From Methanoregula formicica SMSP (GTDB lineage: Archaea; Halobacteriota; Methanomicrobia; Methanomicrobiales; Methanospirillaceae): a DNA stretch of 64,000 nt. The stretch spans positions 1,674,001 through 1,738,000 of the forward strand of contig NC_019943.1 in assembly GCF_000327485.1 (NCBI RefSeq), in the 5' to 3' direction. The notes below the pieces were generated by a model. It was not told the origin of the DNA. It ran no database searches and was given only the letters and a program-made list of their open reading frames with translations. How positions within the stretch are numbered: position 1 is the first letter of the stretch; the number at the start of each line of letters is the position of its first letter. Shown piece by piece: positions 7,754-49,243 of this stretch. The position numbers were made by a program, and so were the translations under genes.

Positions 7754-8017
7754 TCTCCTTTCCTGTTTTTTGACGGGTATGAAAATCCCCATAATTTTCA
7801 TCCGCATTCTATGCCACTGGATGTCATAGCACGTTCTGGAGAAAACCTGTGTGGGCTATTGTTAGTCAGGGAGAAAGCCACGGGCGCTCGGTGTCTGCCG
7901 ATCCTCGCACCGCGAAGAGTCTTTCGGATTTTTCTCATCCTCACAGTCTGACAACGGTTCGGGCCGTGGAACCTGGCCGTATGCGAGCCAAGAAAAACTT
8001 TAAAAAAAGAGCGCTGT
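7754..8017. other. Intergenic region between two converging PEGA genes
   Basis: This 264-base stretch lies between the 3' ends of two convergent PEGA genes. It contains an A-rich tract (AACTTTAAAAAAAG near 7996-8010), which read on the minus strand is T-rich and could end the multi-PEGA transcript. No reading frame with a credible ribosome site or composition was found, and no RNA gene was recognised. Confidence 0.4.
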
Positions 8018-27423: not shown

Positions 27424-27452
27424 TCCTTCCCTTTTTTCGCATCTTCTTCTCA

Positions 27453-28625: not shown

Positions 28626-28741
28626 ACGCACCGGAAATGCTTTACAGTGAATGACTATACGTCACCATTAATATTTTCTTTGTATGCCGGGCACTGAAGA
28701 TGTACATCCGCCCGGTTTTTGTTTCATACCCATTTCCGGAT

Positions 28742-29305
28742 CTACAGGACGCCGGTACGGCCGAGCTTTTCCCGGAAGATTTCTAACCCTTTCCGGATAT
28801 CGGCAAGGTTTGTCCCCCCGGTGATGACGGCTTTCCCGGAAGAGAAGAGGAGGAAGACGACTTTGGGGTCGGTAAGCCGGCAGACCAGCCCCGGGAAACT
28901 CTCCGGTTCGTACTCCACCCAGTCGCTGTCCATGAGGGAAGCGACCATCCGGACCAGGTTGCATTCCCGGCCGAAACTGCAGGTACAGACAATGTTCCGG
29001 ACCGAGACGCGGGGCTCATCATGGCAGGCGATGTTGGCGGTTTTGAGCACTGCAAGAAGGTTCTTTGTGGCAGGCACAAGGTCTTCCTGCCGGGCAATGC
29101 CGGTGATGACAACCTTCCCGGATCCAAAGATGAGGGCAACGGCTTTGGGGTCCTGCATATAGTACACGGCGCCGGGAAACCGCTTCTTGTCGAACCTGCA
29201 CTCCGGTACTGCATTGAGGAGATGCGTCAGGTCAATGGAATCCGCAACCGGTCCGGCGGCAACGATATTCTGGATCCTGATCGGATCGTCCTGCATTTTT
29301 TTCAT
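28742..29305 (-). CDS. tbp: TATA-box-binding protein
   Basis: A 187-residue archaeal TBP made of two imperfect repeats of about 90 residues. Each repeat shows the saddle pattern, such as FPGAVYYMQDPKAVALIFGSGK in parts and FPGLVCRLTDPKVVFLLFSSGK in parts, followed by a K(A/V)VITG strand. It binds promoters with TFB to start transcription. The protein lacks the strongly acidic C-terminal tail of many archaeal TBPs and contains several extra cysteines (CTCSFGREC), so it may be one of several TBP paralogues. Confidence 0.92.
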   Translation of the reverse strand: MKKMQDDPIRIQNIVAAGPVADSIDLTHLLNAVPECRFDKKRFPGAVYYMQDPKAVALIFGSGKVVITGIARQEDLVPATKNLLAVLKTANIACHDEPRVSVRNIVCTCSFGRECNLVRMVASLMDSDWVEYEPESFPGLVCRLTDPKVVFLLFSSGKAVITGGTNLADIRKGLEIFREKLGRTGVL

Positions 29306-29432
29306 GGTACCCGGTTTGATTGGAAGTACCTATTTATCGGTAACCCGGATCCAGCGCAATGCAGGAAGGCCTGTTTCATAAAAGGTTCCACCCGCTGGCC
29401 GGCAACCGCGCGAGAAAAAAACACTGCCCGGT

Positions 29433-29472
29433 AATTTTCCGGAGAACCGGAAATTAGTTGCGCGATCAACTA
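29433..29472. promoter_or_regulatory. Two adjacent palindromes upstream of marR (candidate operators)
   Basis: A nearly perfect inverted repeat (AATTTTCCGG-agaa-CCGGAAATT, 29433-29455) abuts a second perfect one, TAGTTG-CGCGAT-CAACTA (29455-29472). The second has the TAGTTG/CAACTA arms seen in MarR-family operators. An AT-rich box (TACGTATTTG) follows at once. Position about 120 bases before the MarR gene fits autoregulation of the marR-MFS unit. The sequence is seen directly; the binding protein is inferred. Confidence 0.55.
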
Positions 29473-29590
29473 CGTATTTGTGGAAATCCCATCATGATGG
29501 TTGCATCAGCCGGGATCCGGACTCGGCACATCACGGGAGTAAACCCGCAGATTGCGTCTGCACCCGGACCGGGCCGGTACGGTGAAATCC

Positions 29591-30031
29591 TTGGAAACGA
29601 GAGAACGGGAATTTTTAGGAAAAGACATTGCGTTGCTCTACCGGGCAAGCCAGAAGAACCTTGACGACCGGCTCCGGCCCTGCGGGATCGGCTCGGGACA
29701 GTTTTACGTGCTGATGCCCCTCTTCCGCGAGGACGGGATCAACCAGGACGCGATAACCCGGATCATCCAGGTGGACAAGGCGTCCGTCACCCGGGCGGTC
29801 CAGAAACTGGTTGACGAAGGCTACGTTGTCCGGAAACGTGACGAGACCGACCGGCGCTCCTGCCGGGTCTTTCTCACAAAAAAAGGCCGGGGGATCCAAC
29901 TTGCGATGACAACGATTGCGCAGGAATGGGAAGACCTGCTCCCCTCCGGTTTTGATCCGGTGGAGCGCGGGGGGGTCCGTGGCTCGTTTGAAACAATGAT
30001 CAACACCATCTTCCGGGATACGGGAGAGTAA
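29591..30031 (+). CDS. MarR-family transcriptional regulator
   Basis: A winged-helix regulator of about 146 residues. The recognition helix region (ITRIIQVDKASVTRAVQKLVDEGYVVRKRD) and the wing DETDRRSCRVFLTKKG are typical MarR. The start is uncertain: TTG 29591 follows GGTGAAAT at good spacing; GTG 29582 is possible. It ends 11 bases before an MFS transporter, a classic efflux pump-repressor pair. It is likely to bind the palindromes at 29433-29472 and release on binding a small toxic compound. Confidence 0.9.
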   Translation: METREREFLGKDIALLYRASQKNLDDRLRPCGIGSGQFYVLMPLFREDGINQDAITRIIQVDKASVTRAVQKLVDEGYVVRKRDETDRRSCRVFLTKKGRGIQLAMTTIAQEWEDLLPSGFDPVERGGVRGSFETMINTIFRDTGE

Positions 30032-30042
30032 CGGAGGATATC

Positions 30043-31221
30043 ATGGAATTCAGGAAATCCCACCAGTTCATGCTCTGCATCACGGCATTCTTCGGCATGG
30101 CCGGGGGCACGCATCTTGCCCCGGTCCTGCCGGAGATGGTAGCGCCCCTGCACACGACCAGTGCGGAAGTCGCCCTGCTGATGTCGGTGCTGACCATCTC
30201 GACTGCCATCTTCACCCTGCTGATTGCGCACTACATTGACCGGGTCAACCGCAAGACAGTCCTCATCCCCTGCCTCGTGGTCTACGGCCTGACCGGCCTC
30301 TTCTGTTTCTTTGCCTCCGACATGCAGTCGCTCCTCGTCCTCCGGTTCCTGCAGGGGATTGGCGTTGCGGGGATGCTGACCCTGCCCCTTCTCATGATTG
30401 GGGACGTGTTCAAAGGCCACGACAGCGTGAAGCCGATCAGCACCATCAGTATCTCGTTTGCGATCGGTGCCATATCGGTCCCGCTCATCGGGGGGTTCAT
30501 GGCAATGGTGGCGTGGAACCTCCCGTTCCTGTTCTACGCGCTCGCGCTCCCGTTCGCCCTTGTGGTCTGGGCATTTCTCCCGGAGACACGCGGGGCGGAG
30601 CATGCCGGTAACCGCAACGGGATCAAAGAGGCGTTTTGTGCGCTCCGGGATATCCGGGTTTTCTCTGCGGTCTTCATGGGATTTGCCGTATACGTCCTGC
30701 TGTTTGCCATGGTCATCTACGTCCCCTTCCTGCTCAAGAGCCTCTTCTCGTATTCCTCCGGCTCTTCCGGCATCATGCTCGCGATCGAAGGGCTCGCGGT
30801 CATTCTTGTGGCGTCCCGGGTGCACAGCCTTACGCGGAGATATTCCGTGCTCCCGGTCATCACCCTCGGGTTCGCGCTCGTTGGCGCATCGCTCGTGCTC
30901 ATGGCATTCTTCCCCTTCCTAGCCGCTATCGTCCTCCTGCTCATCCTGTTCGGGGCCGGGTATGGTCTTGCCCAGACGTCCGTTGATGTCCTCACGGTCC
31001 AGGTCCCCCCGCCGGAAAACCGGGGCGGCATCCTCTCCATCCACACCTGCGGGAAATACCTTGGCGGGAGCATCGCCCCGGTCATCCTCGGGATCGTTCT
31101 CGTCTTCTTGGGCATGGAAGGCGTCTTTGTGCTGGCCGGGATCTTCGGGCTCGTTATGGCCGCAATCGCGTACGGGATCCGGAATAAATTCGCGGGGCCG
31201 GCCGGTGCTGCGGGGCAGTGA
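30043..31221 (+). CDS. MFS transporter (drug efflux type)
   Basis: A 392-residue transporter with about 12 membrane helices. The loop after helix 2 is DRVNRKTVLIPCL (about 66-78), the MFS signature loop; the helix 4 region contains RFLQGIGVAGMLTLPL. GGAGG lies 5-8 bases before ATG 30043. The gene directly follows marR, which suggests an inducible multidrug or metabolite exporter. Its 3' end is followed by a T-rich tract (31230-31294) and then the accessory island. Confidence 0.92.
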   Translation: MEFRKSHQFMLCITAFFGMAGGTHLAPVLPEMVAPLHTTSAEVALLMSVLTISTAIFTLLIAHYIDRVNRKTVLIPCLVVYGLTGLFCFFASDMQSLLVLRFLQGIGVAGMLTLPLLMIGDVFKGHDSVKPISTISISFAIGAISVPLIGGFMAMVAWNLPFLFYALALPFALVVWAFLPETRGAEHAGNRNGIKEAFCALRDIRVFSAVFMGFAVYVLLFAMVIYVPFLLKSLFSYSSGSSGIMLAIEGLAVILVASRVHSLTRRYSVLPVITLGFALVGASLVLMAFFPFLAAIVLLLILFGAGYGLAQTSVDVLTVQVPPPENRGGILSIHTCGKYLGGSIAPVILGIVLVFLGMEGVFVLAGIFGLVMAAIAYGIRNKFAGPAGAAGQ

Positions 31222-31227
31222 CGCTGC

Positions 31228-31294
31228 GGGATTTTTAGAAAATTTTTGAAAAATTTTTCTGGTTTTTTTCTGGGATTTTGTTTTTCTTTTTTAG
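31228..31294 (+). terminator. T-rich terminator tract after the MFS gene
   Basis: Several T runs (TTTTT, TTTTTTT, TTTTT, TTTTTT) follow the MFS stop codon closely on the plus strand, interleaved with AAAATTTTT units. Runs of T downstream of a gene are the main intrinsic termination signal in archaea. Assignment is from composition and position only. Confidence 0.55.
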
Positions 31295-31500
31295 ATCAAC
31301 AAATTTTTTCAAGAAAATTTCCGGCTCGTGAAAAATTTTCGGAACTAATTTTCTCTCTAAAATCTTTGCCGGAGAATTTTCGGATGCCGGATCTTCCGTA
31401 ATCAAAGGCCAGGCGCTCCATGCCGGGAGACGGGCCGAGGAGTAAGGGTACCCGGGAATGCAAGTGTGCCCGCCAGAAAGATACGACGGTGGAAGTTATC

Positions 31501-31614
31501 TCTCCGTCGGAGACCCGGGTCGAAGAGCCCTTCGGACTCTTCGAAGACCGGTTGGTCTTCTCATCTCTCAGGTCTGATGACCATCGAGTTCTCCTGCTCC
31601 AGGTCAAGCGACCT
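31501..31614. repeat. Hairpin train, member of a dispersed GAAGA/TCTTC hairpin family
   Basis: Consecutive short inverted repeats with small loops: GAAGAG...CTCTTC (31522-31542), GAAGACC...GGTCTTC (31543-31560), GGTC-tgat-GACC (31571-31582) and AGGTC...GACCT (31601-31614). The words GAAGACC, GGTCTTCTC and CAGGTCTGATGA recur in the train at 49020-49184. The hairpins are seen directly. Whether they act in RNA or are mobile DNA repeats is not known. Confidence 0.7.
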
Positions 31615-31770
31615 GTCGCACCCGAAAACCCCCTTTCTTTTCGTTTCGCGTGCTCCCCATGCGAAAAAAGAGCGATCGGCCGCTGGAAGGGCACTATTTA
31701 GTTAATTTTTAAAGCCAGAAATAGACGCCGTTCGTAAAAATACAGGCAAAATATCAGTATTTTCCAAATG

Positions 31771-31876
31771 AGGTACTGTAATTCGCAAAAAAATGCGACT
31801 ATCCCAAAACCTGTTTCCTAAAATGAACCCGGATCCGAAAACGGAGCGATTATAAGAGAGATTGGACTTAGGGGGA
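31771..31876. repeat. Imperfect direct repeat, copy A
   Basis: About 106 bases that align with 32048-32155 along their length. Both begin AGGTACTGTAATTCGC, contain a small inverted repeat (TCGC...GCGA around an A-rich loop), AAAATGA(A/G)CCCGGAT(C/T)CGAAAAC and CGATT(A/T)AT, and end in a G run. The two copies differ by substitutions spread throughout. Not coding. Could be a duplicated regulatory element or the remnant of a mobile element. Confidence 0.75.
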
Positions 31877-32047
31877 TTGTCTCTGGCGGAAGTCATCCGG
31901 AATATCCTCCTGCCAGTTTGTTTAGCGTGCCCATGCCAGGAAAAACCCGTGATCGTTGAACCGGGAGTGCCTATATTGGCATTTTTCCGGGGTATATCCT
32001 GCTCCGTTAAGGGAAAAAATCCCCTAAAATTCATTCGTTAAAAATCC

Positions 32048-32155
32048 AGGTACTGTAATTCGCGAAAAAGTGCGATCCTCCAAAAGTCGGTTTTTCAAAA
32101 TGAGCCCGGATTCGAAAACAAAACGATTTATGGGGAGATTAGTTTTCAGGGGGGG
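32048..32155. repeat. Imperfect direct repeat, copy B
   Basis: Second copy of the repeat at 31771-31876, with the same opening word and the same small TCGC/GCGA inverted repeat. It ends about 120 bases before the TATA-like box of the restriction-modification gene. The unit spacing of 277 bases is larger than the unit itself, so this is not a simple tandem slippage product. Confidence 0.75.
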
Positions 32156-32175
32156 CCTTGCGTACAGGCCGTTGC

Positions 32176-32206
32176 CCAGCGAGGGGGCGGCAAGCCCCCC
32201 GAGCGA
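32176..32206. repeat. GC-rich hairpin
   Basis: An inverted repeat, GAGGGGGC-ggcaa-GCCCCCC-like, upstream of the restriction-modification gene. It can form a stem of about seven G-C pairs. It does not share the GAAGA/TCTTC stem of the other hairpins in the island. Role unknown; possible transcription-blocking or terminator-like structure. Confidence 0.5.
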
Positions 32207-32323
32207 CTCCGAGCATAAGCGAGGAGGGGGTGGAATCGTATTTTCAATTTGAATTCCCGTTCCCGTAAAATCTAAAAATATATTTCAACATCTTTAACGC
32301 GATTGAGCGCACCACCTTCTTCA

Positions 32324-35300
32324 ATGGCAGTCCCCGAATCCATCCAGCCACTTGTTGAAAAGTACACGTACCATCGCGAAGCCTACATCCGCGGGCAGGA
32401 GAAATACAATGAATCACAACTCCGCCAGGATTTCACTGATCCGTTTTTCCACGCGCTCGGCTGGGACGTGAACAACAACAAGGGACATTCGGAAGCGTAC
32501 CGGGAAGTGCTGCATGAGGAGCCGGTCCGGATCCGGGGGACTACCAAATATTTCGACTACACGTTCAGGATCGGGGGCGTGCGGAAGTTCATTGTCGAGA
32601 CCAAGAAGCCGTCCGTGCACATCAGGGATGATGCGGATGCAGCTCTCCAGCTCCGAAGGTATGCGTGGAACGCAAAACTCCCGCTCTCTATCCTGACGAA
32701 CTTCGAGGAGTGGGCGATCTATGATTGTACGATCAAGCCGGAGAATGGCGACACGGCTGCGAAGGGACGGATCGAGTATTTCACGTACAAGGATATTCCG
32801 GCCAAGTGGGACTATCTGGTCAGTGTCTTCTCGCAGGACTGTATCCTGAAAGGATCGTTCGACCGGTACGCTGCATCGCACAAAGGGAAGAAAGGGACGG
32901 CTGCGGTTGATGACGATATCCTTTCCGAGATCGAGTCATGGCGGGACGCACTCGCGAAGAACATCGCGATCCGGAACGACAAACTCTCGGTTGCCGAGCT
33001 GAACACCGTTGTCCAGCGCACGATCGACCGGCTCCTCTTCCTGCGGATCTGCGAAGACCGGGGGATCGAGGAGTACACAACGCTCCACAAACTTCTCGAA
33101 GGCGAGAACGTGTATGCCCGGCTCTGCGAACTGTTCCGGAACGCTGACGCGAAGTACAACTCCGGCCTCTTCCATTTCGATGACGAGCCCGGCAGGAATG
33201 AACTGCCGGACAACCTCTCCCTCTCCGTTTCCGTGGACGATAAGGTCTTGAAAGGGATCATCAAACGGCTTTACTATCCTGAAACCCCGTACCTCTTCTC
33301 GGTCATCCCTCCCGCAATCCTCGGGCACGTTTACGAGCAGTTCCTCGGGAAAGTTATCCGGCTTACGGAAGGTCACCAGGCAAAAGTGGAGTTCAAGCCG
33401 GAGGTGAAGAAGGCGGGCGGCGTCTTCTACACCCCGCAGTACATCGTGGAATACATTGTTGCGCACACGGTCGGCGAACTCGTGATGGACAAGACCCCCC
33501 GCGACGTGGCAAAGCTCCGCGTCCTCGACCCTGCGTGCGGCTCCGGTTCGTTTTTGATCGGGGCGTACCAGTTCCTCCTTGACTGGCACCGCGACTGGTA
33601 CATCGCAAACCTTGTCCCGGTTTTTATCGATAAGAAATCCGTGACCGACCCGGCCGTCCTCGCCCTGCTTCCCGAGCCCACGCCGCGGGGCAAGAAGAAA
33701 CTCACGCAGGTCGAGCTCCCGGTGTACAAGGCCGGCAAGACCGGCGATGCAACACGCTCGCGGAGCGACTGGCGCCTGACTACGGCCGAGAAGAAACGCA
33801 TTCTCTTGAACACCATCTACGGTGTGGACATCGACCAGGCCGCAGTCGAGGTGACGAAACTCTCGCTCCTCTTAAAAGTGCTTGAAGAAGAGAATGAGGA
33901 GAACATCGATAAGCAGCTGAAACTGTTCGCGGAGCGGGCGCTCCCCTCGCTGCACGAGAACATCAAGTGCGGGAACTCGCTGATCGGTACCGACATCATT
34001 ACACCTGAGATGGTGCAGGAAGAAGTGAAGCGGATCAACCCGTTCGACTGGGACCGGGAGTTTGCGGATGTGATGAAGGCGGGCGGGTTCGATGCTGTGA
34101 TCGGGAATCCGCCGTACATCCGGATCCAGACCTTGAAGGAATGGGCGCCGCAAGAAGTAGAATTCTACAAGAAAAAATTCATTTCCGCAAGCAAGGGAAA
34201 CTACGATATCTATGTTGTATTTGTTGAGAGGGGACTATCACTGCTCAACAAGAATGGCTTACTTGGGTACATTCTCCCGCATAAATTCTTCAACGCCAAA
34301 TATGGCGAGCCAGTGCGTTCAGTAATTGCGAAGGGAAAACATCTGAAAGAGATTGTTCATTTCGGACATCAGCAAATCTTTGAGAATGCAACAACCTATA
34401 CGTGTCTGCTATTTCTCGGAAAGAAAGACTATGATGATTTCGGATTTATCAACGTCGGGGATCTTACTTTATGGCGCTCCTCACATATCGCAATCGAAGG
34501 AAATATTTCGTGTAAAGATGTTTCCAAAAATGAGTGGAATTTTGTTGTAGGTAATGATTCAGGACTTTTCAAAAAATTAGACTCTGAAAGAATAAAACTG
34601 AAAGATGTTACAGCAAAAATTTTCCAAGGATTAGTAACGGGTGCTGATCCAGTTTTTCTTGTCATTAATCAAGAGGATGGATCATTTTACTCAGATGCAA
34701 CGGGAAAGACACATTTGCTTGAGAAAGATTTACTCCATCCATTATGCAAAGGCGCATTAAACATTCGTCGTTATTATATCGATAACATTACCAAATCGAT
34801 TCTTTTTCCGTATAAAATTGAAGAAAATACTGCAATTCTTATCTCAACAAAAGAACTCGCAGAAAAATATCCAAACACCTGGGAATATTTCAAACAAAAT
34901 AGATCTTTGTTAGAGGCACGAGAAAACGGAAAATGGAAAAACGAACAATGGTATGCATTTGGTCGGAATCAAAATTTAACCGAAATGAATCGTGAAAAAA
35001 TTCTCTCGCCAAGTATCGCTAACGGTGCATGTTTCACTTTTGATTCAAAAGATTTCTTTTACTTCATGGGTAGTGGCGGTGGCGGCGGTGGCGGCTATGG
35101 TATTATTTTAAAACCCGAAGAGAAAATGTCCTATTACTATCTGTTAGGTCTCCTCAACTCAGCATTATCAACATTCTATCTGAAGAAGATTAGTTCCACA
35201 TTTAGGGGAGGGTACATCGCCTTGAACCGGCAATATATAGAGCAACTCCCCATACGCACCATCAACTTCGCCGACCCTGCCGACAAGACCCGGCATGATC

Positions 35301-35488
35301 GCATGGTTCAGCTCGTAACGCAGATGCTTGACCTCAATAAGAAAATACAGGATGCCCGCGTTGATCACGACAGGACCCTGCTCCAGCGGCAGATCGAGGC
35401 AACGGATGCTTCCATCGATAAACTGGTGAACGAGCTGTACGGGCTGACGGAGGAGGAGATTGCGGTTGTGGATGGTGTCGGCCGATGA
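32324..35488 (+). CDS. Type IIG-like restriction-modification enzyme (nuclease, N6-adenine methylase and specificity domains)
   Basis: About 1054 residues. The N-terminal domain has a PD-(D/E)XK-like nuclease core (FDYTFRIGGVRKFIVETKKP, near 85-104). The methylase has motif I DPACGSGSFLIGAYQF (about 402-417) and motif IV VIGNPPYIRI (near 592). The C-terminal part is a TaqI/Eco57I-like target-recognition domain with a run of glycines (GSGGGGGGGYG) and an end helix pair. Bases about 34150-35210, the specificity region, are clearly more AT-rich than the flanks, suggesting domain replacement. ATG 32324 is preferred; TTG 32303 is possible. One intact gene; its 3' end is duplicated twice downstream. 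Confidence 0.88.
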   Translation: MAVPESIQPLVEKYTYHREAYIRGQEKYNESQLRQDFTDPFFHALGWDVNNNKGHSEAYREVLHEEPVRIRGTTKYFDYTFRIGGVRKFIVETKKPSVHIRDDADAALQLRRYAWNAKLPLSILTNFEEWAIYDCTIKPENGDTAAKGRIEYFTYKDIPAKWDYLVSVFSQDCILKGSFDRYAASHKGKKGTAAVDDDILSEIESWRDALAKNIAIRNDKLSVAELNTVVQRTIDRLLFLRICEDRGIEEYTTLHKLLEGENVYARLCELFRNADAKYNSGLFHFDDEPGRNELPDNLSLSVSVDDKVLKGIIKRLYYPETPYLFSVIPPAILGHVYEQFLGKVIRLTEGHQAKVEFKPEVKKAGGVFYTPQYIVEYIVAHTVGELVMDKTPRDVAKLRVLDPACGSGSFLIGAYQFLLDWHRDWYIANLVPVFIDKKSVTDPAVLALLPEPTPRGKKKLTQVELPVYKAGKTGDATRSRSDWRLTTAEKKRILLNTIYGVDIDQAAVEVTKLSLLLKVLEEENEENIDKQLKLFAERALPSLHENIKCGNSLIGTDIITPEMVQEEVKRINPFDWDREFADVMKAGGFDAVIGNPPYIRIQTLKEWAPQEVEFYKKKFISASKGNYDIYVVFVERGLSLLNKNGLLGYILPHKFFNAKYGEPVRSVIAKGKHLKEIVHFGHQQIFENATTYTCLLFLGKKDYDDFGFINVGDLTLWRSSHIAIEGNISCKDVSKNEWNFVVGNDSGLFKKLDSERIKLKDVTAKIFQGLVTGADPVFLVINQEDGSFYSDATGKTHLLEKDLLHPLCKGALNIRRYYIDNITKSILFPYKIEENTAILISTKELAEKYPNTWEYFKQNRSLLEARENGKWKNEQWYAFGRNQNLTEMNREKILSPSIANGACFTFDSKDFFYFMGSGGGGGGGYGIILKPEEKMSYYYLLGLLNSALSTFYLKKISSTFRGGYIALNRQYIEQLPIRTINFADPADKTRHDRMVQLVTQMLDLNKKIQDARVDHDRTLLQRQIEATDASIDKLVNELYGLTEEEIAVVDGVGR

Positions 35489-35512
35489 CCCGACGGGAAG
35501 CGGCTGACATGA

Positions 35513-35534
35513 GAAGAACCCCTCAGGGTTCTTC
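35513..35534. repeat. GAAGAACCC/GGGTTCTTC hairpin
   Basis: A perfect nine-base-pair hairpin with loop CTCA, just after the restriction gene and 12 bases before the RhuM start. The following GAGGAG supplies the ribosome-binding site of the RhuM gene. Same family as the hairpins at 38670, 38729, 39477 and 49020. It may also act as a processing or attenuation structure between the two genes. Confidence 0.75.
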
Positions 35535-35546
35535 GAGGAGCGGGAA

Positions 35547-36566
35547 ATGACCGGACATGAAAAGAACCTGATACGAAACAGCACAGCAGAATTCCTGATT
35601 TTTACGTCAACCGTTGGCGAGGAATCAATCGAAGTCAGGTACGAGGATGAAACAGTCTGGCTCAGCCAGAAGATGATGGCTGCGCTCTTCGATGTAAAGA
35701 CCCCGACAATAAACGAACACTTAAAAAACATCTACGAGAGCGGCGAACTGACCCGGAAAGCAACTATTCGGAAATTCCGAATAGTTCGCACCGAAGGAAA
35801 CCGCGAGGTAAAGCGGGATCTCGAATACTACAGTCTCGATGCCATAATCTCGGTCGGGTACCGCGTCAATTCCAAGAGGGCCACCCAGTTCCGCCAGTGG
35901 GCAACGCAGGTATTGCGGGAATTCGCCATCAGGGGATATGTCCTTGACAAAAAGCGGATGGAAAACGGTACGTTCTTAGGCGAAGATTACTTCGAGCGTC
36001 TGCTTGCAGAGATACGGGAGATCCGCCTCAGCGAGAGACGATTCTACCAGAAGATCACCGACATCTATGCCACAAGCATCGATTACAACAGGGATGCCCC
36101 GACGACCCGCGATTTTTTTGCAAACGTCCAGAACAAATTGCATTTCGCCATTCACGGGCATACCGCAGCCGAACTGATACTACAGCGGGCGGACAGCAGA
36201 AACGATCACATGGGTCTGACCACCTGGGAGAACAGTCCTGACGGGAAGATCCTGAAGACCGATGTGGTGGTTGCAAAAAATTATCTGACATCGCAGGAAC
36301 TCGAATCACTCGGGCGGATCGTCAATGCATGGCTTGATCTTGCTGAAGATCGCGCCAGACGACAGATTCCCATGACCATGGAAGACTGGGCAAAACGTCT
36401 CGACCGGTTCCTTGAATCCGATGACCGGAACCTTCTGGAAGATGGCGGGAACGTAACCGCAGAGATGGCAAAAGAGTTTGCGGAGACGGAATTTGAAAAA
36501 TACCGTATTGTTCAGGACCGGCTTTTTGAAAGCGATTTCGACCGGATATTAAAAGAGACAAAATAA
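35547..36566 (+). CDS. RhuM-family protein
   Basis: A 339-residue protein of the RhuM family. The N-terminal winged-helix-like part has VWLSQKMMAALFDVKTPTIN (about 32-51), with the strongly conserved YYSLDAIISVGYRVNSKRA near 93-111 and FRQWATQVLREFAIRGYVLD near 114-133. The C-terminal part is helical and charged. RhuM was named in a Salmonella pathogenicity island; its biochemical role is not known, but the family is common beside restriction systems and in mobile islands, as here. The ribosome site is within the tail of a hairpin element. Confidence 0.88.
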   Translation: MTGHEKNLIRNSTAEFLIFTSTVGEESIEVRYEDETVWLSQKMMAALFDVKTPTINEHLKNIYESGELTRKATIRKFRIVRTEGNREVKRDLEYYSLDAIISVGYRVNSKRATQFRQWATQVLREFAIRGYVLDKKRMENGTFLGEDYFERLLAEIREIRLSERRFYQKITDIYATSIDYNRDAPTTRDFFANVQNKLHFAIHGHTAAELILQRADSRNDHMGLTTWENSPDGKILKTDVVVAKNYLTSQELESLGRIVNAWLDLAEDRARRQIPMTMEDWAKRLDRFLESDDRNLLEDGGNVTAEMAKEFAETEFEKYRIVQDRLFESDFDRILKETK

Positions 36567-36580
36567 GCATGAGACCCGGA

Positions 36581-36715
36581 CGCCAAACTAGATCACGACA
36601 AGACGCTGCTCAGCGGCAGATCGAAACGACGGATGCGGTGATCGATAAACAGGTGTACGAGCTGTACGGGCTGGCGGAAGAGGAGAACACGGCGGTGGAA
36701 GGAAACGGGAAATGA
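36581..36715 (+). pseudogene. Fragment of the restriction-modification gene 3' end (copy 2)
   Basis: Matches the last 45 or so codons of the enzyme at 32324-35488 (the DARVDHDRTLLQRQIEATDASIDKL region in parts, through ELYGLTEEE to the stop). It lacks one base in the CTGCTCCAG position, so the frame is broken. Bases 36591-36686 are identical to 38787-38882. It lies between RhuM and the small gene at 36719. It is a remnant of a duplicated gene end, not a functional gene. Confidence 0.85.
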
Positions 36716-36718
36716 AAA

Positions 36719-36991
36719 ATGGCAATCATTAAACTTATAGATTCTGACCAGGACCTTTTAGAGGGCTATGGTATTGGGCCCGGATCGTATCCCGCAGCCG
36801 GTAACCATGAATTCATATTTCCTGCTGATACGCCGGATTTTCACATCCGTTTCTTTGAAAAGAACGGTGCCCTGTTTGCAGAACTACCGGATGATCTGGA
36901 ACCTGCATTTGAAGGAACAACACTGGACCTCAATAATGGCGGAGATGTTGCAAAAGAATACGAAGGAAAGATCTTTGCCATATATGTCTGA
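36719..36991 (+). CDS. Small acidic protein of unknown function
   Basis: A 90-residue acidic protein (DSDQDLLEGYGIGPGSYP..., FHIRFFEKNGALFAELPDDLEP). It looks like a compact soluble domain with alternating strands. No family is recognised. It starts four bases after the remnant stop of the restriction-gene fragment and precedes the AlbA_2/ATPase gene by about 50 bases on the same strand, so the pair may be co-transcribed cargo of the island. It could be a partner or modulator of that protein; this is only inferred from position. Confidence 0.6.
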   Translation: MAIIKLIDSDQDLLEGYGIGPGSYPAAGNHEFIFPADTPDFHIRFFEKNGALFAELPDDLEPAFEGTTLDLNNGGDVAKEYEGKIFAIYV

Positions 36992-37040
36992 TAGTTCATA
37001 GAGGGAGAACAAAAAAAACAGAATACGGGAACCAGATGTC

Positions 37041-38411
37041 ATGACCCTTGACCACTTCCTCAAAGAAATTGAATCCCGTGAGCTCGAATTCAAGGAAAAG
37101 CCGAATCCCGCACTCTTCAAGACGCTATCAGCATTTGCCAACACCGATGGGGGCGTTGCACTCATCGGGGTATCTGACAAAAAAGAGATCACCGGGTACC
37201 GTTGCTCAAATGCAGACCTCAAGGATTTATCCGATACCATCGTCAACAAACTCGCCATCCATCCTGTGATTGAACCGGTCAAATGTGAAGGGAAAACGGT
37301 TGTACGGATTGAGGTAAAGAAGAGCAAAGTCCCGGTCGCATACGAAGGCAGGTATTACACGCGGGTGGGAAACACAACAAGACTGATGGACACTGAAGAA
37401 CTCAAAGAATTCCTCGTTTCCGAAATCGAATGGGATCGCCTTCCTTCAGAGCGCGGACTTGCGGATATCGATATGGAAACCGTCAGGCTCTTCGTTCGCT
37501 TGGCAAAAAGTGCCGGCAGGCTTCCCGGCGCTGACGAGCGTGAACCGGTTGCAGCGATACTCACGCGGCTCGGTCTCATGACCGGGGATCAACTGACTAA
37601 CGCAGCATTCCTGCTCTTCGGAAAAAAACAGGAGTCCTATCTTTCAGATACGGTGCTTCGCATCGGCCGGTTCAAAGACGGAGTAACCATCATAGGTGAC
37701 CGCTGGATTGCCGGGAATCTCTTCCGCCAGCTCAGCGAAGGGGAAGAAGCGCTCAGGAATTTTATCAATGTACGCTACGAAATATCGGGAGAAACTCCGG
37801 AACGTAAAGAACATTGGGATTACCCGCTTCCCGCACTCAGAGAAGCGCTTATGAATGCGCTTGTCCACCGGGATTATTTCAAAAAGAACGAACAGATCAT
37901 GATAAAAATCTATGACGATGCGATCTGGTTCCATAATCCCGGGGGTTTTCCCAAGGGGCTGTCAATTGCACAGCTGAAAGCAATGCCCCAGTCAATTCCC
38001 CGAAATCCGCTGATCGCAAGGATCTTCTATCTCTCCGGGTATATCGAGCGGTACGGTTCCGGCATCCAGAGAATACTCACATCGTTTGCGGACGCAGGAC
38101 TTCCCGAGCCGGAATTCCAGACCGATGCGTGGGGATTGACCCTGACAATGCAGAAAGATATCTTCACTGAAGAATACCTTGCGCAGATGGGACTGAATGA
38201 ACGGCAACTTCAGGCAATCCCCATTATGAGGAAACAGGGAAGCATTTCCAAACGCGAATACGAGGATCTCGTGTCGGTTTCCACAAGAACCGCGCTCTAC
38301 GATCTGACTGCATTAGTTAACAAAGGAGTACTGGTTAGGATAGGTTCCGGCAAATCCTCCAGGTATTCACTATCTTCCAAACCAAAGAATACCCAAACCG
38401 GAGGATCATGA
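37041..38411 (+). CDS. AlbA_2 (Schlafen-like) and GHKL-ATPase domain protein
   Basis: A 456-residue protein. The N-terminal AlbA_2 domain (ESRELEFKEKPN..., FANTDGGVALIGVSD about 32-46, YYTRVGNTTRLMD near 110-122) resembles the Schlafen divergent AAA_4 fold. The middle has a GHKL-like ATPase part (ALREALMNALVHRDY near 270-284; FHNPGGFPKG; GYIERYGSGIQRIL). The C terminus looks like a winged helix. Such proteins are found with toxin or defence cargo in bacteria and archaea and may act as ATP-dependent regulators. It sits between two identical 96-base repeats in the island. Confidence 0.85.
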   Translation: MTLDHFLKEIESRELEFKEKPNPALFKTLSAFANTDGGVALIGVSDKKEITGYRCSNADLKDLSDTIVNKLAIHPVIEPVKCEGKTVVRIEVKKSKVPVAYEGRYYTRVGNTTRLMDTEELKEFLVSEIEWDRLPSERGLADIDMETVRLFVRLAKSAGRLPGADEREPVAAILTRLGLMTGDQLTNAAFLLFGKKQESYLSDTVLRIGRFKDGVTIIGDRWIAGNLFRQLSEGEEALRNFINVRYEISGETPERKEHWDYPLPALREALMNALVHRDYFKKNEQIMIKIYDDAIWFHNPGGFPKGLSIAQLKAMPQSIPRNPLIARIFYLSGYIERYGSGIQRILTSFADAGLPEPEFQTDAWGLTLTMQKDIFTEEYLAQMGLNERQLQAIPIMRKQGSISKREYEDLVSVSTRTALYDLTALVNKGVLVRIGSGKSSRYSLSSKPKNTQTGGS

Positions 38412-38525
38412 TGGAGATTCCCGATGCCTAAGGCATTGCGCGTATTGCGCGAAAATTGCGTGGATCCATCTGAAGAGGGCATAATGGGGACATGAATGAG
38501 ACAGATATCACATCTATCGGGATAT

Positions 38526-38911
38526 GAACAATACACAGACACTCCTATTGGTATCCCGGCCATCCGCACCATCAACTTCGCCGACAAAGCCCGGCACGAC
38601 CGCATGGTCTCGCTCGTCACGCGGATGCTGGAAATCCGTTTTTGGCCATCAGGACAAAGATGGATTCGAGAAGAACGCCTCAGCGTTCTTCGCTGTGGCG
38701 AATCCCGTATCTGCGGGATGAGACTGAAGAAGAATCCTGAAAGGATTCTTCGCTGTTTAAACAAAAAGTTACAGAACGCCCGCGTCGATCACGACAAGAC
38801 GCTGCTCAGCGGCAGATCGAAACGACGGATGCGGTGATCGATAAACAGGTGTACGAGCTGTACGGGCTGGCGGAAGAGGAGATCAAGATCGCTGAAGGAG
38901 CGGGTAAATAA
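38526..38911 (+). pseudogene. Fragment of the restriction-modification gene 3' end (copy 3), interrupted by hairpins
   Basis: Matches the end of the enzyme at 32324-35488 in two blocks: the IRTINFAD...RHDRM..LVT.ML segment (38563-38632) and the KLQNARVDHDKTLL...ELYGLAEEE segment (38756-38911). About 123 bases that are absent from the intact gene separate the blocks and carry three hairpins. The same one-base deletion as in copy 2 is present (CTGCTCAG). The 96 bases 38787-38882 are identical to copy 2. Confidence 0.85.
38633..38755. mobile_element. Hairpin element inserted in the restriction-gene remnant
   Basis: About 123 bases found between the two conserved blocks of copy 3, with no counterpart in the intact gene. 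They hold three inverted repeats: GAAGAACGC...GCGTTCTTC (38670-38691), ATCCCG...CGGGAT (38702-38719) and GAAGAATCC...GGATTCTTC (38729-38751). The first and third have the GAAGAA/TTCTTC stem of the family. No transposase is encoded, so it would depend on another system. The interruption is observed directly; mobility is inferred from it. Confidence 0.65.
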
Positions 38912-38976
38912 TCCGCCGGATTTTTTTGCCAGGTTTTGATTCTGAAATGGTAAACTGGTGTACTTTTTATTGAGTT

Positions 38977-39237
38977 GTGATGTCCTGCGCACTTACCGGT
39001 TCGGATTCTCCGCTGACAAATACTCTTATTATCCATTGTGCGAGAAATCGAATAACCGGAGATGTACCCCTGTCTGAAAACCAGCGGTCCGATGCAGTGA
39101 AAAGCCTTGTGAAATTCATGATCTGCCTTGCGATAGCAGGCACGATCATTGCGCTCGTATGGTATTTCGCCATTGACCTGCCGGTCCAGCAGGCAGCAGC
39201 AATCCACGTGCCCACGAATACACTCGTTCCCTTGTAG
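38977..39237 (+). CDS. Small membrane protein
   Basis: An 86-residue reading with one clear membrane helix (LVKFMICLAIAGTIIALVWYFAI) preceded by a charged stretch and followed by a short outer tail (DLPVQQAAAIHVPTN). The start is uncertain; the first 30 residues look less protein-like than the rest, so translation may begin later. Not assigned to any family. It stands alone between two pseudogene regions in the island. Confidence 0.5.
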   Translation: MMSCALTGSDSPLTNTLIIHCARNRITGDVPLSENQRSDAVKSLVKFMICLAIAGTIIALVWYFAIDLPVQQAAAIHVPTNTLVPL

Positions 39238-39364
39238 ACCGGGAAAACCCCTGCAGGGAGATGGACACTCGTGCAAAACGAGTGTTCTCAAGCATTCCTT
39301 CTTTACTCCTCCTTGTTTTCGAGATTCGTCTGTAAAAATACTATACCTGACTTACCCAACAAAA

Positions 39365-39548
39365 GTCAGCCGGCATGTCGGCTTGCTATTCGAGCGTGCG
39401 GATGCCATTGATCACGAGGTTGCGGCGGCGGACCGGCGAAGTGAGATGCCGTCACCCACCCGGGGCGACAGTTTGAGAAGAATGCTGGGGCGTTCTTCGA
39501 GGGATGACGCAGGCGGTGCTGGCGCGAGCCTTCGCTGGCAGATTTTGA
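39365..39548 (+). pseudogene. Remnant of a type I restriction specificity subunit (HsdS)
   Basis: The segment VSRHVGLLFERADAIDHEVAAADRR (39368-39442 in parts) matches the C-terminal coiled coil of HsdS proteins. The expected continuation, MTQAVLARAFAGRF and a stop (39504-39548), is present but in another frame. Between them lie about 60 bases with a GAAGAA/TTCTTC-family hairpin. The rest of HsdS and the R and M genes are absent. It shows a former type I system in this island. Confidence 0.7.
39477..39498. repeat. GAAGAATGC/GCGTTCTTC hairpin inside the HsdS remnant
   Basis: A nine-pair stem (one T-G pair) with a short G-rich loop, flanked by GTTTGA and GAGG. It lies in the extra sequence that separates the two HsdS blocks. 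Same stem type as at 35513, 38670 and 49020, again inside a broken restriction gene. Confidence 0.65.
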
Positions 39549-39733
39549 CAGTGGATGAGAGAGGTACCTACCCCTTCCATGCCATGGGGGGTGGGTAGGG
39601 GTCCCTGAGTGGGAGGGGGGACCCTGCTGCCGGTTCCGGGCCGGGACACTGGGAGGGGGGGACACCCCTCCCCATTTTCGCACCGCACGGGACCCCCATT
39701 ACGTGGCATCATGAGAAGCGTTGTTGTACGAGC
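39549..39733. other. G-rich intergenic stretch
   Basis: About 185 bases without a gene between the HsdS remnant and the PIN gene. Several runs of four to six G occur on the plus strand (39587-39660), with GTGGGAGGGGGGACCC and CTGGGAGGGGGGACACCCC as near repeats and an inverted GGGAGGGG/CCCTCCCC. G-quadruplex or hairpin formation is possible. No RNA gene or protein is recognised. Confidence 0.5.
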
Positions 39734-40187
39734 ATGACCGTAAAAATCTACATGGATGTCTGCTGTTTGTGCAGACCATTTGATGACCAGAACAACCGGA
39801 AGATCCGGCTTGAAGCAGAAGCCGTCCTGGCAGTATTAGACCGGTGTTCCAGGGACTGGGATCTTGTCGGAAGCGTCATCATTGACGATGAAATATCACG
39901 CCTTGCAGATATTGAAAAACGATTAAAACTGGAACAGAAACTCATGCTCGTCAGGGATTATATCGAACTGAATGAATCCATTTTCAACCGGGCATTACAA
40001 TACCAGAAAGAAGGTATCAAATTGTTCGATGCACTCCATCTCGCATGTGCAGAGATCGGAGAAACTATTTTCCTCACACAGATAACAGGGTAATTACTAC
40101 CGTAAGGAAAATCCCGGCACTATCCACCGGGTAAATAACCCGGTTCACTGGTTCATGGAGGTGTCAGCCGATGAAAACTATAAGTGA
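39734..40187 (+). pseudogene. PIN-domain toxin gene with two frameshifts
   Basis: The first 119 residues (KIYMDVCCLCRPFDDQ..., FDALHLACAEIGETIFLT) are a PIN nuclease with the first acidic residue in YMDVC and the later Asp in FDALH. After FLT the frame runs into a stop, but the usual continuation is seen in the other frames: DNRVITTVRKIPALSTG, then VNNPVHWFMEVSADENYK with a stop at 40185-40187. Two one-base deletions, near 40075-40080 and 40130-40135, explain this. The toxin would lose its last acidic region and helix. Confidence 0.75.
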
Positions 40188-40413
40188 AGTAAGAAAAGAG
40201 GGCATCCAGGCACTTACCAAGACCCTCGGACCCGTCGATATGGCCAGGTTTATCCAGAGTTTCGAGACCGGATCCGGCGATTATACCAAAGAACGTCATG
40301 AATGGCTGCCGGAAAACCTCGATGAGATTAAAAACGGTCTCATGGAACGACAGAAGAACGTAAAACGCAGAAGCAAATCCAATCACACACGAGATCGTGA
40401 AAAACGGATTTGA
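40171..40413 (+). CDS. Partner protein of the PIN toxin (probable antitoxin)
   Basis: An 80-residue basic/acidic protein (MKTISEVRKEGIQALTKTLG, then DMARFIQSFETGSGDYTKER). It overlaps the ancestral end of the PIN gene by 17 bases, as expected for a coupled toxin-antitoxin pair, here with the toxin gene first. GGAGGTG lies upstream at 40157-40163. No DNA-binding fold was recognised with certainty. With the toxin frameshifted, it may be an orphan antitoxin. Confidence 0.6.
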   Translation: MKTISEVRKEGIQALTKTLGPVDMARFIQSFETGSGDYTKERHEWLPENLDEIKNGLMERQKNVKRRSKSNHTRDREKRI

Positions 40414-40433
40414 AATATTTTTTTTAAATTGCG

Positions 40434-40462
40434 GTCCGGAATTTTTTAAAATTTTTCCGGAC
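40434..40462. terminator. Hairpin with A/T-rich loop
   Basis: GTCCGGAA...TTCCGGAC, an eight-pair inverted repeat around TTTTTTAAAATTT, lying between the converging antitoxin gene and SDR gene. The T run and symmetry suit a bidirectional terminator. A second AAAAATTTT tract follows. Similar AT-rich units stand at the other border of the island (31233-31390). Confidence 0.5.
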
Positions 40463-40511
40463 GCCGCTGGAAAAATTTTGTTCGCGATCGATTCGAAGAA
40501 TCCGGCACCCA

Positions 40512-41327
40512 TCACCGCTTCTTCTGCCCGGCTAAAAATTTCCGGTATTCCGGCGATTCGAACATCTCGCGGGTCTCCTTCTCGGCCTGTTTGTGCGCCA
40601 TATCCCGGAAGACCGGGTCTTTGCATTTCTCCAGCAGTTCCCTCATGGCCTCCGGGAAGACGACCATCGGCTCTTTCTTTGCAACCCCGTCAAGGATGAT
40701 CCGGGCTGCATCCTCTACCGGGATCGCATCCTTCGGGACTCTGCCCCGGAAGATCGGCGTGGCCACATCCCCCGGGCAGACCACTGTGAAGAAAATGTTC
40801 CTGGGTGCATACTCGTAGTACAGACAGTCGGTCAGGCCGATCACTGCGTTCTTGGTGGCAACGTACAGGGTCTGGTAGGGTGTGCCAAAGAGTGAGGCAA
40901 CCGATGACGTGTTGACGATATGGCCGCTGCCCTGCTTTTTCATGACCTCAAGAGCGGCGTTCACTCCGTAGATCACGCCCCAGAGGTTGATGTCGATCAT
41001 CTCCTTCCAGTCTGCAAGGGTGCTTGCCTCGTACGGGTTCTTCTGGCTGATGCCGGCATTGTTGAACAGGTAGTCGAGATGGCCGGAGAGAGCAACACAG
41101 TCCCTGACCATGGCTTCGACCGCAGCAGGATCTTTCACATCAACCGCAGCAAACTTCGCCTGCGGATATGCCGCAAGGGTGGCTTTTGCTTTCTCTACGC
41201 TCTCCGCCCGGCTGCCGATCACCCAGACAACCGCGCCCTGTTTGAGCAGTTCTTCTGACACTGCATAGCCAATGCCGGAGGTTCCTCCGGTCACAATCGC
41301 AATCTTTCCCTCAAATGGTGTGGTCAT
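40512..41327 (-). CDS. Short-chain dehydrogenase/reductase
   Basis: A 271-residue classical SDR. The cofactor motif is TGGTSGIG (about 13-20), the NNAG equivalent is LFNNAGIS (about 90-97) and the catalytic Ser-Tyr-Lys are in NTSSVASLF and YVATKNAV (about 142-163). It probably reduces a ketone or alcohol with NAD(P)H; substrate unknown. ATG 41327 is chosen because the conserved N terminus (EGKIAIVTGG) follows directly; an upstream reading adds 14 unmatched residues. Confidence 0.9.
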   Translation of the reverse strand: MTTPFEGKIAIVTGGTSGIGYAVSEELLKQGAVVWVIGSRAESVEKAKATLAAYPQAKFAAVDVKDPAAVEAMVRDCVALSGHLDYLFNNAGISQKNPYEASTLADWKEMIDINLWGVIYGVNAALEVMKKQGSGHIVNTSSVASLFGTPYQTLYVATKNAVIGLTDCLYYEYAPRNIFFTVVCPGDVATPIFRGRVPKDAIPVEDAARIILDGVAKKEPMVVFPEAMRELLEKCKDPVFRDMAHKQAEKETREMFESPEYRKFLAGQKKR

Positions 41328-41528
41328 GGTTTCGCCTTGTACACGTCTGAATATGCAGGATTCCTGCATATCGTGAAAATCATCAGATTTTTATTGATAC
41401 GTTCTTTTGCTCACGTTCCTATATGCTGGTTTATATTTAGTTCCCGTAGGGGATTTGCAGGAATCATGGGAGTCTGGTTCAGGGAAGACGGCAGCCTGAA
41501 GGTGGGGATTCTAACCAGAAGAGTAGAT

Positions 41529-41602
41529 GCTGCTATGGGGATTCGAACCCCAGTCGCGGGCGTGAAAGGCCCGCATGATTGGCCGGACTACACTATAGCA
41601 GC
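41529..41602 (-). tRNA. tRNA-Glu (anticodon UUC)
   Basis: The reverse strand folds as a tRNA of 74 bases. The acceptor stem is GCTGCTA/TAGCAGC, the T arm contains GGTTCGAATCC within a five-pair stem, and the anticodon loop is CTTTCAC with anticodon TTC (41564-41566). CCA is not encoded. A TATA-like CTATTTATGA lies upstream on the minus strand (complement of about 41630-41640), roughly 30-40 bases before the 5' end. Confidence 0.95.
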
Positions 41603-41703
41603 AAATTGTCCTACTTAATTTCTCGCAACGTCATAAATAGGTTATGGAGGAGGGCACGCCATGAACGGGATGATCCTCCCGAAACATGAAAAACCGGAAA
41701 AAA

Positions 41704-42681
41704 TTATCGCTTCTTTGCCTTCGACTTGAATTTTTCTGCTGCTTTCACCGGCTTTTTCACTGCTTTCTTCACCGCGGTCTTTCCTGCTGCTTTCACTGCA
41801 AGCTTCTTCGGCTTGCCGTGGATGGGATAGCCTTCCTTTTTTGTCAGGGGCCCGAATGCGGCTGCCAGCTGCCGGAAAACCGGGCCGGGCTTACCGGACC
41901 CGATCGTGCGTCCGTCAACCCAGACAATGGGGGCGACTTCCGCAGCAGTACCCGAGCAGATCAGCTCGTCGGCCGTGTACAGATCGAAGTACCCGAGGTT
42001 CTGCTCGCGGACGGTGATTCCCAGCGATTTTGCGATCTCGAGCACGACAAGGCGGGTGACGCCCCGGAGGTTGTTGAGTGTGGGGGGCGTGATGATCTCG
42101 CCGTTCTTGACAATGTACAGGTTGTCACCCGAGCCCTCGGAGATGTAGCCGTTCGTGTCAAAGAAGATCGCCTCGTCCCCGCCCTTGTAGTTTGCCTCGA
42201 TCTTGGCAAGGATGTTATTCAGGTAATTCAGGCTCTTGACATTCGGGGGCATGCACTCGGCCGGGTTGCGCCGGACCGACACGGTCACGGCCTTTAAGCC
42301 CTTCTCGTACAGGTCGCCGTACATCGCACCCCAGGTCACGGCAATGATGATGACCGAAGGCTTCGGGCACTTGCGCGGGTCAAGGCCGAGATCCCCCTTG
42401 CCACGGGTGATGATCGGCCGGATGTACGCATTGTCCAGCTTGTTCCTCCGGAGCACCTCGCAGATCGCCTCGGTCATCTCCTCTTTTGTCATCGGGGGTT
42501 TGATGTCGATGGTCTTGGCTGAATCGTACAACCGGTCGATATGTTCCTTCAGCCGGAAGATCCTGCCATTGTACGCCCGGATCCCTTCAAAGCAGCCATC
42601 GCCATAGAGGAACCCGTGGTCGAACACGGAGACGCTTGCCTTGTCCTCCGGCAGGAATTTCCCATCATAATAAATGATCAT
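41704..42681 (-). CDS. ilvE: Branched-chain amino acid aminotransferase with a lysine-rich tail
   Basis: A 325-residue class IV PLP aminotransferase. It has [20 protein letters not shown] (about 4-23), [12 protein letters not shown], the catalytic lysine in VKSLNYLNN (near 154) and the late [10 protein letters not shown]. It transfers the amino group of valine, leucine or isoleucine. The enzyme core ends near residue 290. The last 35 residues are almost only Lys, Ala, Val and Pro ([15 protein letters not shown] at the end), like a histone H1 tail, and are not part of the family domain. Confidence 0.92.
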
Positions 42682-48944: not shown

Positions 48945-49243
48945 TGAGAGAGCCGGGCATGGATTGAAGTGCGCCTATGTAGTTTCCTTTTTTCTCATCC
49001 CTTCGGGGTTCGGCAACTCGAAGAACCCTGAAGGGTTCTTCTCCTGCTTCAGGTCTGATGACCTTCAGCAACTCGAAGAACACTTTACTTTCGGTCGAAG
49101 ACCTGATGGTCTTCTCCTGCTTCAGGTCTGATGAATCCGAGACCTTCAAAGGAAGGTCGAGAAGGAGAGGATTTCCACGGAAATCTTCGACCACTTGGCA
49201 ACCCAAACCTCTTTCTTCCGGTATATGCAACGAATATGAACTT
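48945..49243. other. Intergenic region with a hairpin train
   Basis: A 299-base gap between the nuclease gene and the marker-9 gene. Most of it (49020-49184) is a train of short hairpins (see the separate entry). Close to the marker-9 start a GTATATG box (about 49221-49227) could be the TATA element for an almost leaderless transcript. Open frames across the hairpins are not credible proteins. Confidence 0.6.
49020..49184. repeat. Train of six short hairpins with an internal direct repeat
   Basis: Consecutive perfect inverted repeats: GAAGAACCC...GGGTTCTTC (49020-49041), AGGTC...GACCT (49051-49064), GAAGACC...GGTCTTC (49097-49114), GACCTTC...GAAGGTC (49141-49158) and ATTTCC...GGAAAT (49171-49184); a further AGGTCTGATGA half-unit lies at 49124-49134. 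A 25-base stretch is repeated exactly at 49037-49061 and 49110-49134. The words match the train at 31501-31614 and single hairpins in the island. Confidence 0.75.

Follow-up and report, generated by a model that had tools for sequence, protein, structure and literature searches.

A DNA unit of about 53 nt, made of two adjacent hairpins, is gained or lost as exactly one piece at orthologous sites in Methanoregula, without target duplication, and the tip of one of its hairpins is replaced en bloc at a site that is otherwise unchanged. Its copies are dispersed, conserve their structure with strong covariation, nest within one another and form tandem arrays. We lean towards reading the unit as a small non-autonomous mobile element of DNA, which would take a folded single-stranded form and swap its hairpin tips.

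The two-hairpin unit and its copies

The window, which is the whole stretch of 64,000 nt analysed here, comprises positions 1,674,001-1,738,000 of the one-contig genome of Methanoregula formicica SMSP (2,820,858 bp). A preliminary description, made from the letters of the window, had reported six perfect hairpins in a row at 49020-49184. Those at 49020-49041, 49097-49114 and 49141-49158 are indeed perfect (stems of 9, 7 and 7 bp), that at 49167-49188 pairs at 9 of 10 positions, and that at 49051-49064 is a 5-bp AGGTC/GACCT hairpin; the second AGGTCTGATGA hairpin did not stand, as it is broken by an inserted unit (49135-49190). The hairpins are real, but they do not form a free train; they belong to a unit of two hairpins, whose order is fixed and whose GA/GA is conserved. 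The exact 25-base internal repeat was found as described (49037-49061 and 49110-49134), as were the same elements at 31501-31614 and the single copies at 35513, 38670, 38729 and 39477, the last with one G.T pair. Beyond what that description held, the family is larger, and its unit moves and swaps hairpin tips. Eight of the entries in Table 1 have a score from R1, a covariance model built from 11 units; a weak additional match lies on the minus strand at 7912-7963 (19.8 bits, E 0.015).

Table 1. Units, partial units and single hairpins of the family in the window
Position	Strand	Feature	Basis
49018..49070	-	unit 1, intact	R1 78.6 bits; predicted fold holds as DNA and RNA
49072..49094	-	remnant of decayed hairpin A (TCGAAGAACACTTTACTTTCGG), ahead of unit 2	sequence reading
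49095..49134	-	unit 2, 5' part on + strand	R1 31.6 bits over 49095-49150; sequence
49135..49190	+	unit 3, orientation opposite to unit 2	R1 24.8 bits
31541..31589	-	unit: hairpin A GA-GAAGACC-aacc-GGTCTTC-GA and hairpin B	R1 45.0 bits
31520..31545	-	additional hairpin A copy TCGAAGAGCCCTTCGGACTCTTCGA, imperfect	sequence reading, predicted fold
31594..31620	-	additional hairpin B, GC-GA-CAGGTC-gctt-GACCTG-GA-GC (genome position 1705600)	flank tally entry, predicted fold
35476..35536	+	unit; perfect hairpin A at 35513-35534, degenerate hairpin B	R1 41.4 bits
38637..38693	+	unit; hairpin A at 38670-38691, degenerate B	R1 27.5 bits
38696..38753	+	unit; hairpin A at 38729-38751, degenerate B	R1 24.9 bits
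39464..39500	+	hairpin A alone (GAGAAGAATGCTGGGGCGTTCTTCGA), one G.T pair	R1 23.1 bits; foot-pattern match

Read on the strand that carries GA, the unit consists of hairpin B, one linking base and hairpin A. Hairpin B has the form outer stem-GA-inner stem-loop-inner stem-GA-outer stem, and hairpin A the form GA-GAAGA-NNN-loop-NNN-TCTTC-GA, so that GA/GA occupies fixed places, within the B stem and at the foot of hairpin A. These places, the GAAGA/TCTTC foot and the loops are kept between copies, while the stem sequences vary, as do the bases before and after the GA-GAAGA...TCTTC-GA foot. In unit 1 (minus strand) the layout is hairpin B TGCT-GA-AGGTC-atca-GACCT-GA-AGCA, a linking G, and hairpin A GA-GAAGAACCC-ttca-GGGTTCTTC-GA. 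The neighbouring remnant has an intact counterpart in L062, TCGAAGAACCCTTTCGGGTTCGG. The 5' part of unit 2 comprises hairpin A (49095-49116) and then most of hairpin B as far as CTGATGA, where B is broken by unit 3; its remainder lies at about 49191-49200. Unit 3 is thereby nested in the loop and 3' arm of its host hairpin (CTGATGA^ATCCGAGACC...ATCTTCGA^CC).

GA/GA was present in 36 of 54 distinct B hairpins that had been located without presupposing it, and 41 of the 54 had C-G or T-A as the outer pair. On the GA strand, three-base A loops read GNA in 23 of 32 cases, and the 41 four-base loops read NTCA in 19 and GNNA in 12. The GA/GA and loop preferences are present on this strand only, which is also predicted to fold slightly better (-15.2 versus -14.3 kcal/mol as DNA, -27.4 versus -25.2 as RNA); the loops, together with these small energy differences, suggest that the GA strand is the one that folds. 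Among 144 hairpins with stems of at least 7 bp, GA stood on both flanks in 59 and the next commonest flank in 7, an enrichment that is partly circular because the tally covered the family's own loci and the window, and most of these loci came from a similarity search.

The dispersal of the family, proposed from the window, extends far beyond chance across the genome. With the 49020 train as the query, blastn returned 56 genome matches at E up to 1, the pattern GAGAAGA-N6-18-TCTTCGA had 107 matches against 1 for its reversed control, and R1 detected 130 units or more with E below 0.01 in the 2.82 Mb, a lower bound since only 150 candidates were scored. Copies are evenly spread along the chromosome, with no strand bias relative to replication. 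They are mostly intergenic: 7 of 53 sampled hairpins lay inside ORFs, while 65% of the sequence is coding by crude ORF calls. Between co-directional genes the units showed no orientation bias (13 same, 12 opposite).

That the stems vary and yet stay paired was borne out in an alignment of 126 distinct units fitted to the R1 model, in which 94.6% of cells were standard pairs, and changes on both sides occurred at 15 of 18 pairs. Such double-sided changes numbered 417 cells; shuffling left 107, and sliding the partners 21-67. A MAFFT alignment of the seed concurred (98.5% paired; 36 double changes versus 0-4 slid). G.U made up only 2.4% of standard pairs, and the mismatches (12 G.T versus 7 A.C) showed no clear excess of G.T. 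These figures fit pairing at the DNA level, or exchange of whole tips, better than stepwise RNA evolution; the stem conservation itself could also reflect a function at the RNA level.

Other features of the region and of the genomes were also observed. The part of the window from about 26500 to 41800, which contains most of its other units, is a variable island without a long syntenic match in the compared stretches of relatives, and 41800-64000 is syntenic. A direct repeat of 96-115 bp occurs at 35346-35460, 36591-36686 and 38787-38882, the last two copies being 100% identical. Another dispersed repeat, some 90-200 bp long and containing the words CAGGTAATRCNGAGGCATC and GCGCCCCC...GGCGCAAGGGGGG, is present in many copies (genome positions 790735-790823, 1154736-1154826, 1847849-1847938, 1931172, 2226925, 2275682 and 2709462; L074, L082, L093, L096 and others). 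It resembles a separate MITE family, and hairpin units often lie within its CCCCC/GGGGG palindrome. In G108, a repeat ending GTTTTGGGATGACCTC (L163-L173) was found at many contig ends, and one copy adjoins a frame resembling an IS256-type transposase.

Gain, loss and exchange of tips

The preliminary description had proposed a comparison of copy locations between strains; made here between species, it found copies at different places. The relatives that bear the motif are Methanoregula, and some of their genomes are draft metagenome assemblies. Between conserved flanking genes, the 49020 locus holds units in four close species, which do not agree in the number, order or orientation of these units; in four others it is a short gap free of units. 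Elsewhere in the genome, a single unit with sharp ends at 1744715 corresponds to an empty site in G143, and a 59-nt unit at 1435490 to an empty site in L131; conversely, G143 has one unit on its contig 7 (about 32474) where the orthologous site 2628609 is empty. Paralogous sites likewise show presence and absence of units, and none of the compared junctions, orthologous or paralogous, carried a target duplication.

Nesting like that of unit 3 was found at other loci, and the uninterrupted form of another such host occurs in two relatives. At 2553818, 54 nt break hairpin B of a resident unit, and the inserted unit is a gain in the lineage of the window, because the host hairpin is whole in both L126 (about 95% identical) and L132. 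Polarity is clear for one single-unit case and, through outgroups, at the 49020 locus; at some sites the comparisons are pairwise, and therefore fit insertion and precise loss alike. The nested position CTGATGA^ATYCGA... recurs in several different host hairpins, including that at 49134-49135 of the window. Since the inner units resemble each other, it is possible that some nested copies are one spreading composite. This CTGATGA^ target is common to the nested sites only, and no clear insertion-site consensus emerged over all sites. In relatives, exact tandem arrays occur, with units of 52-55 bp or dimers of 107 bp.

The exchange of tips is seen when 295037 is compared with its G143 orthologue (L220): hairpin B is identical (28/28) and the flanks are 0.94 and 0.96 identical, but the tip of hairpin A differs (ACCCgtcaGGGT versus TTTTCCatcgGGTAAA). 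The G143 unit resembles one that lies elsewhere in the M. formicica genome, at 195810-195867 (90% over 58 nt). A pair of paralogous 136-bp repeats at 1091334 and 1207800, 88% identical, carries units (1091359 and 1207824) with identical B hairpins (28/28) and unrelated tips. At 1534785, compared with L122, B is again identical (28/28) and the tip is changed, with only one flank well conserved; 591531 versus L120 and 993453 versus L129 are weaker cases. Overall, the tip differed in 20 of 44 pairs of units with near-identical B hairpins. Tips therefore change as blocks.

The family is patchy in its distribution. Copy number in Methanomicrobiales ranges from 0 to over 100, even within one genus, and clear cases come from several genera in three families of this order. 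Among 295 genomes of the phylum, a threshold of E 1e-4 was passed by only four genera, all Methanomicrobiales, and the family was not found in the rest of the phylum. Viral contigs, phages and plasmids yielded no convincing carriers; phage matches at E 0.09 were put down to chance.

Explanations for the spread of the unit

Under the reading that we favour, of a mobile unit moving as DNA, the mobile form would be a folded single strand, most likely ssDNA and the GA strand. It may be recognised through the conserved foot, the GA/GA mismatches and the loops, and its insertion would be favoured at exposed loops, those of resident copies included. The tips would be swapped when dispersed copies undergo homologous exchange or template switching by way of the conserved GAAGA/TCTTC arms, and slippage would give rise to tandem arrays. 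The mover would be something other than a Y1 HUH transposase or reverse transcriptase encoded in the genome, and any host function would be secondary, as with bacterial REP/BIME elements. Searches for Y1 HUH/RAYT transposases (PF01797) gave no match in the M. formicica genome (G000) or in the other high-copy genomes (G093, G011 and G064), and were positive in control genomes. Reverse transcriptase (PF00078) was absent from G000 and most high-copy genomes, and no recurrent gene adjoining the units was found. Targeting of the lagging strand in the manner of IS608 was rejected, as there was no strand bias by replication half, whichever origin was assumed. A more far-reaching version, which we hold to be possible but rather doubtful, is that the family represents an archaeal class of mobile DNA, defined by a pair of unlike hairpins with tandem GA, moved by a non-RAYT enzyme or by none, and using its tips as an exchanged cassette in which pairing is kept.

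It is also conceivable, with a lower probability again, that no transposase is involved and that the units spread and change through events at hairpins, namely recombination and template switching in replication. Using microhomology at GAAGA/TCTTC or GA, a stalled 3' end would move to another copy, copy the unit or its tip, and return. The junctions, none with target duplication, the several insertions within or beside existing hairpins, the tip swaps ending at conserved arms, the exact tandem arrays, and a genome that lacks Y1 and RT genes all speak for such a process. However, insertions also occurred where no copy is recognisable (1744715 and 1435490), and what appears is always a complete unit, 51-59 nt long and with constant ends, which random switching would not yield. 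The GA/GA mismatches persist as well, although a repair that perfects palindromes would pair them; for the same reason, palindrome perfecting by template switch was rejected as the sole cause.

Selection on RNA, with the spread being secondary, is an unlikely explanation. It would make the unit a small RNA or UTR motif, bound for example by an L7Ae-like reader of tandem GA. The strong covariation would suit it, as would some GNRA-type loops and the tandem GA/GA, accompanied in 41 of the 54 B hairpins by an outer pyrimidine-purine pair, which is the context of sheared G.A pairs. Against this, G.U accounts for just 2.4% of standard pairs, G.T mismatches (12) are not clearly commoner than A.C (7), and the units have no orientation bias to genes, which also led to the rejection of intrinsic terminators and mRNA stabilisers. 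The range from zero to over 100 copies among species of one genus means that the unit is not essential. Rfam offered no match at gathering score and no convincing weak one: only two tRNAs were recovered in the window at that cut-off, and the arrays of five relatives gave sub-threshold chance matches only. Box C/D-like (TGATGA) and hammerhead-like (CUGAUGA) readings were dropped, with their other motifs missing and Rfam silent, as was a K-turn, for which GA/GA is there and the three-base bulge absent.

That the hairpins are subterminal parts of larger IS or MITE transposons and move along with them is very improbable and, as a general explanation, largely refuted: identical copies in G108 lie within the multi-copy repeat ending GTTTTGGGATGACCTC, and many units of the M. 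formicica genome within a composite repeat with GCGCCCCC...GGCGCAAGGGGGG ends, so it is possible for part of the copies, but most sites have no common flank, and single units are gained or lost with neither a flanking repeat nor a target duplication.

Relation to known palindromic elements

In the best reading, the unit behaves like the REPINs and BIMEs of bacteria without belonging to them. In the REPINs of Pseudomonas, a single REP with a GTAG/GTGG foot is present as two inverted copies, and a RAYT transposase is associated with them (PMC3116915). Like these and the BIMEs of E. coli, the Methanoregula unit is a mobile doublet of short palindromes, intergenic and in over 100 copies per genome, that is gained or lost as one B-A piece; it also clusters through insertion into or beside existing copies and forms tandem arrays, and in both cases no target duplication is expected. 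It is not a member, since it lacks both the GT[AG]G foot and a RAYT and its two hairpins are unlike: the GTAG/GTGG tetranucleotide was not seen 5' of the foot in Methanoregula units, B and A differ in architecture and are not inverted copies, their order is fixed with GA/GA, and tips are exchanged en bloc. The CGTC-tagged REPs have likewise been reported without a dedicated transposase (PMC3733652), but they are bacterial, carry the tag CGTC, and are single palindromes with no conserved internal GA/GA. The ends of IS200/IS605 elements (HUH Y1) have subterminal hairpins recognised as ssDNA and insert without target duplication (PMC6006769); unlike them, the unit is only 53 nt long, and the Methanoregula genome has no TnpA gene.

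Several other systems were compared. The unit does not correspond to a MITE of a DDE transposase, with terminal inverted repeats and target-site duplication, as no duplication occurs at the compared junctions; nor to an RNA retro-element, as the genome lacks a reverse transcriptase; nor to CRISPR, as the unit is not identical from site to site and spacers are missing from its tandem arrays. BOX elements of Streptococcus pneumoniae are modular hairpin trains of variable number, built from the sequence-conserved modules boxA, boxB and boxC. Both families are modular trains, but the Methanoregula stems differ between copies, and only the foot, GA/GA and loops are kept. The RepRanger survey (PMC12306157) lists REP-like palindromes in the archaea Methanocaldococcus, Pyrococcus, Pyrolobus and two others; these are generic palindromes, with no Methanomicrobiales and no family of the present kind. 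The preliminary description knew of no name for the family, in agreement with Rfam 15, which holds nothing similar, and with a literature search, most subscription journals being outside its reach, that found no published description.

The well-described mobile palindromes of REP type come from bacteria with RAYT transposases, and the present family is archaeal, abundant and recently mobile. Its presence without a Y1 transposase suggests that hairpin DNA can also spread by a different route. The exchange of tips offers a direct, testable case of perfect palindromes altering their sequence without an unpaired intermediate, and so bears on palindromic repeats and on how covariation in alignments is read.
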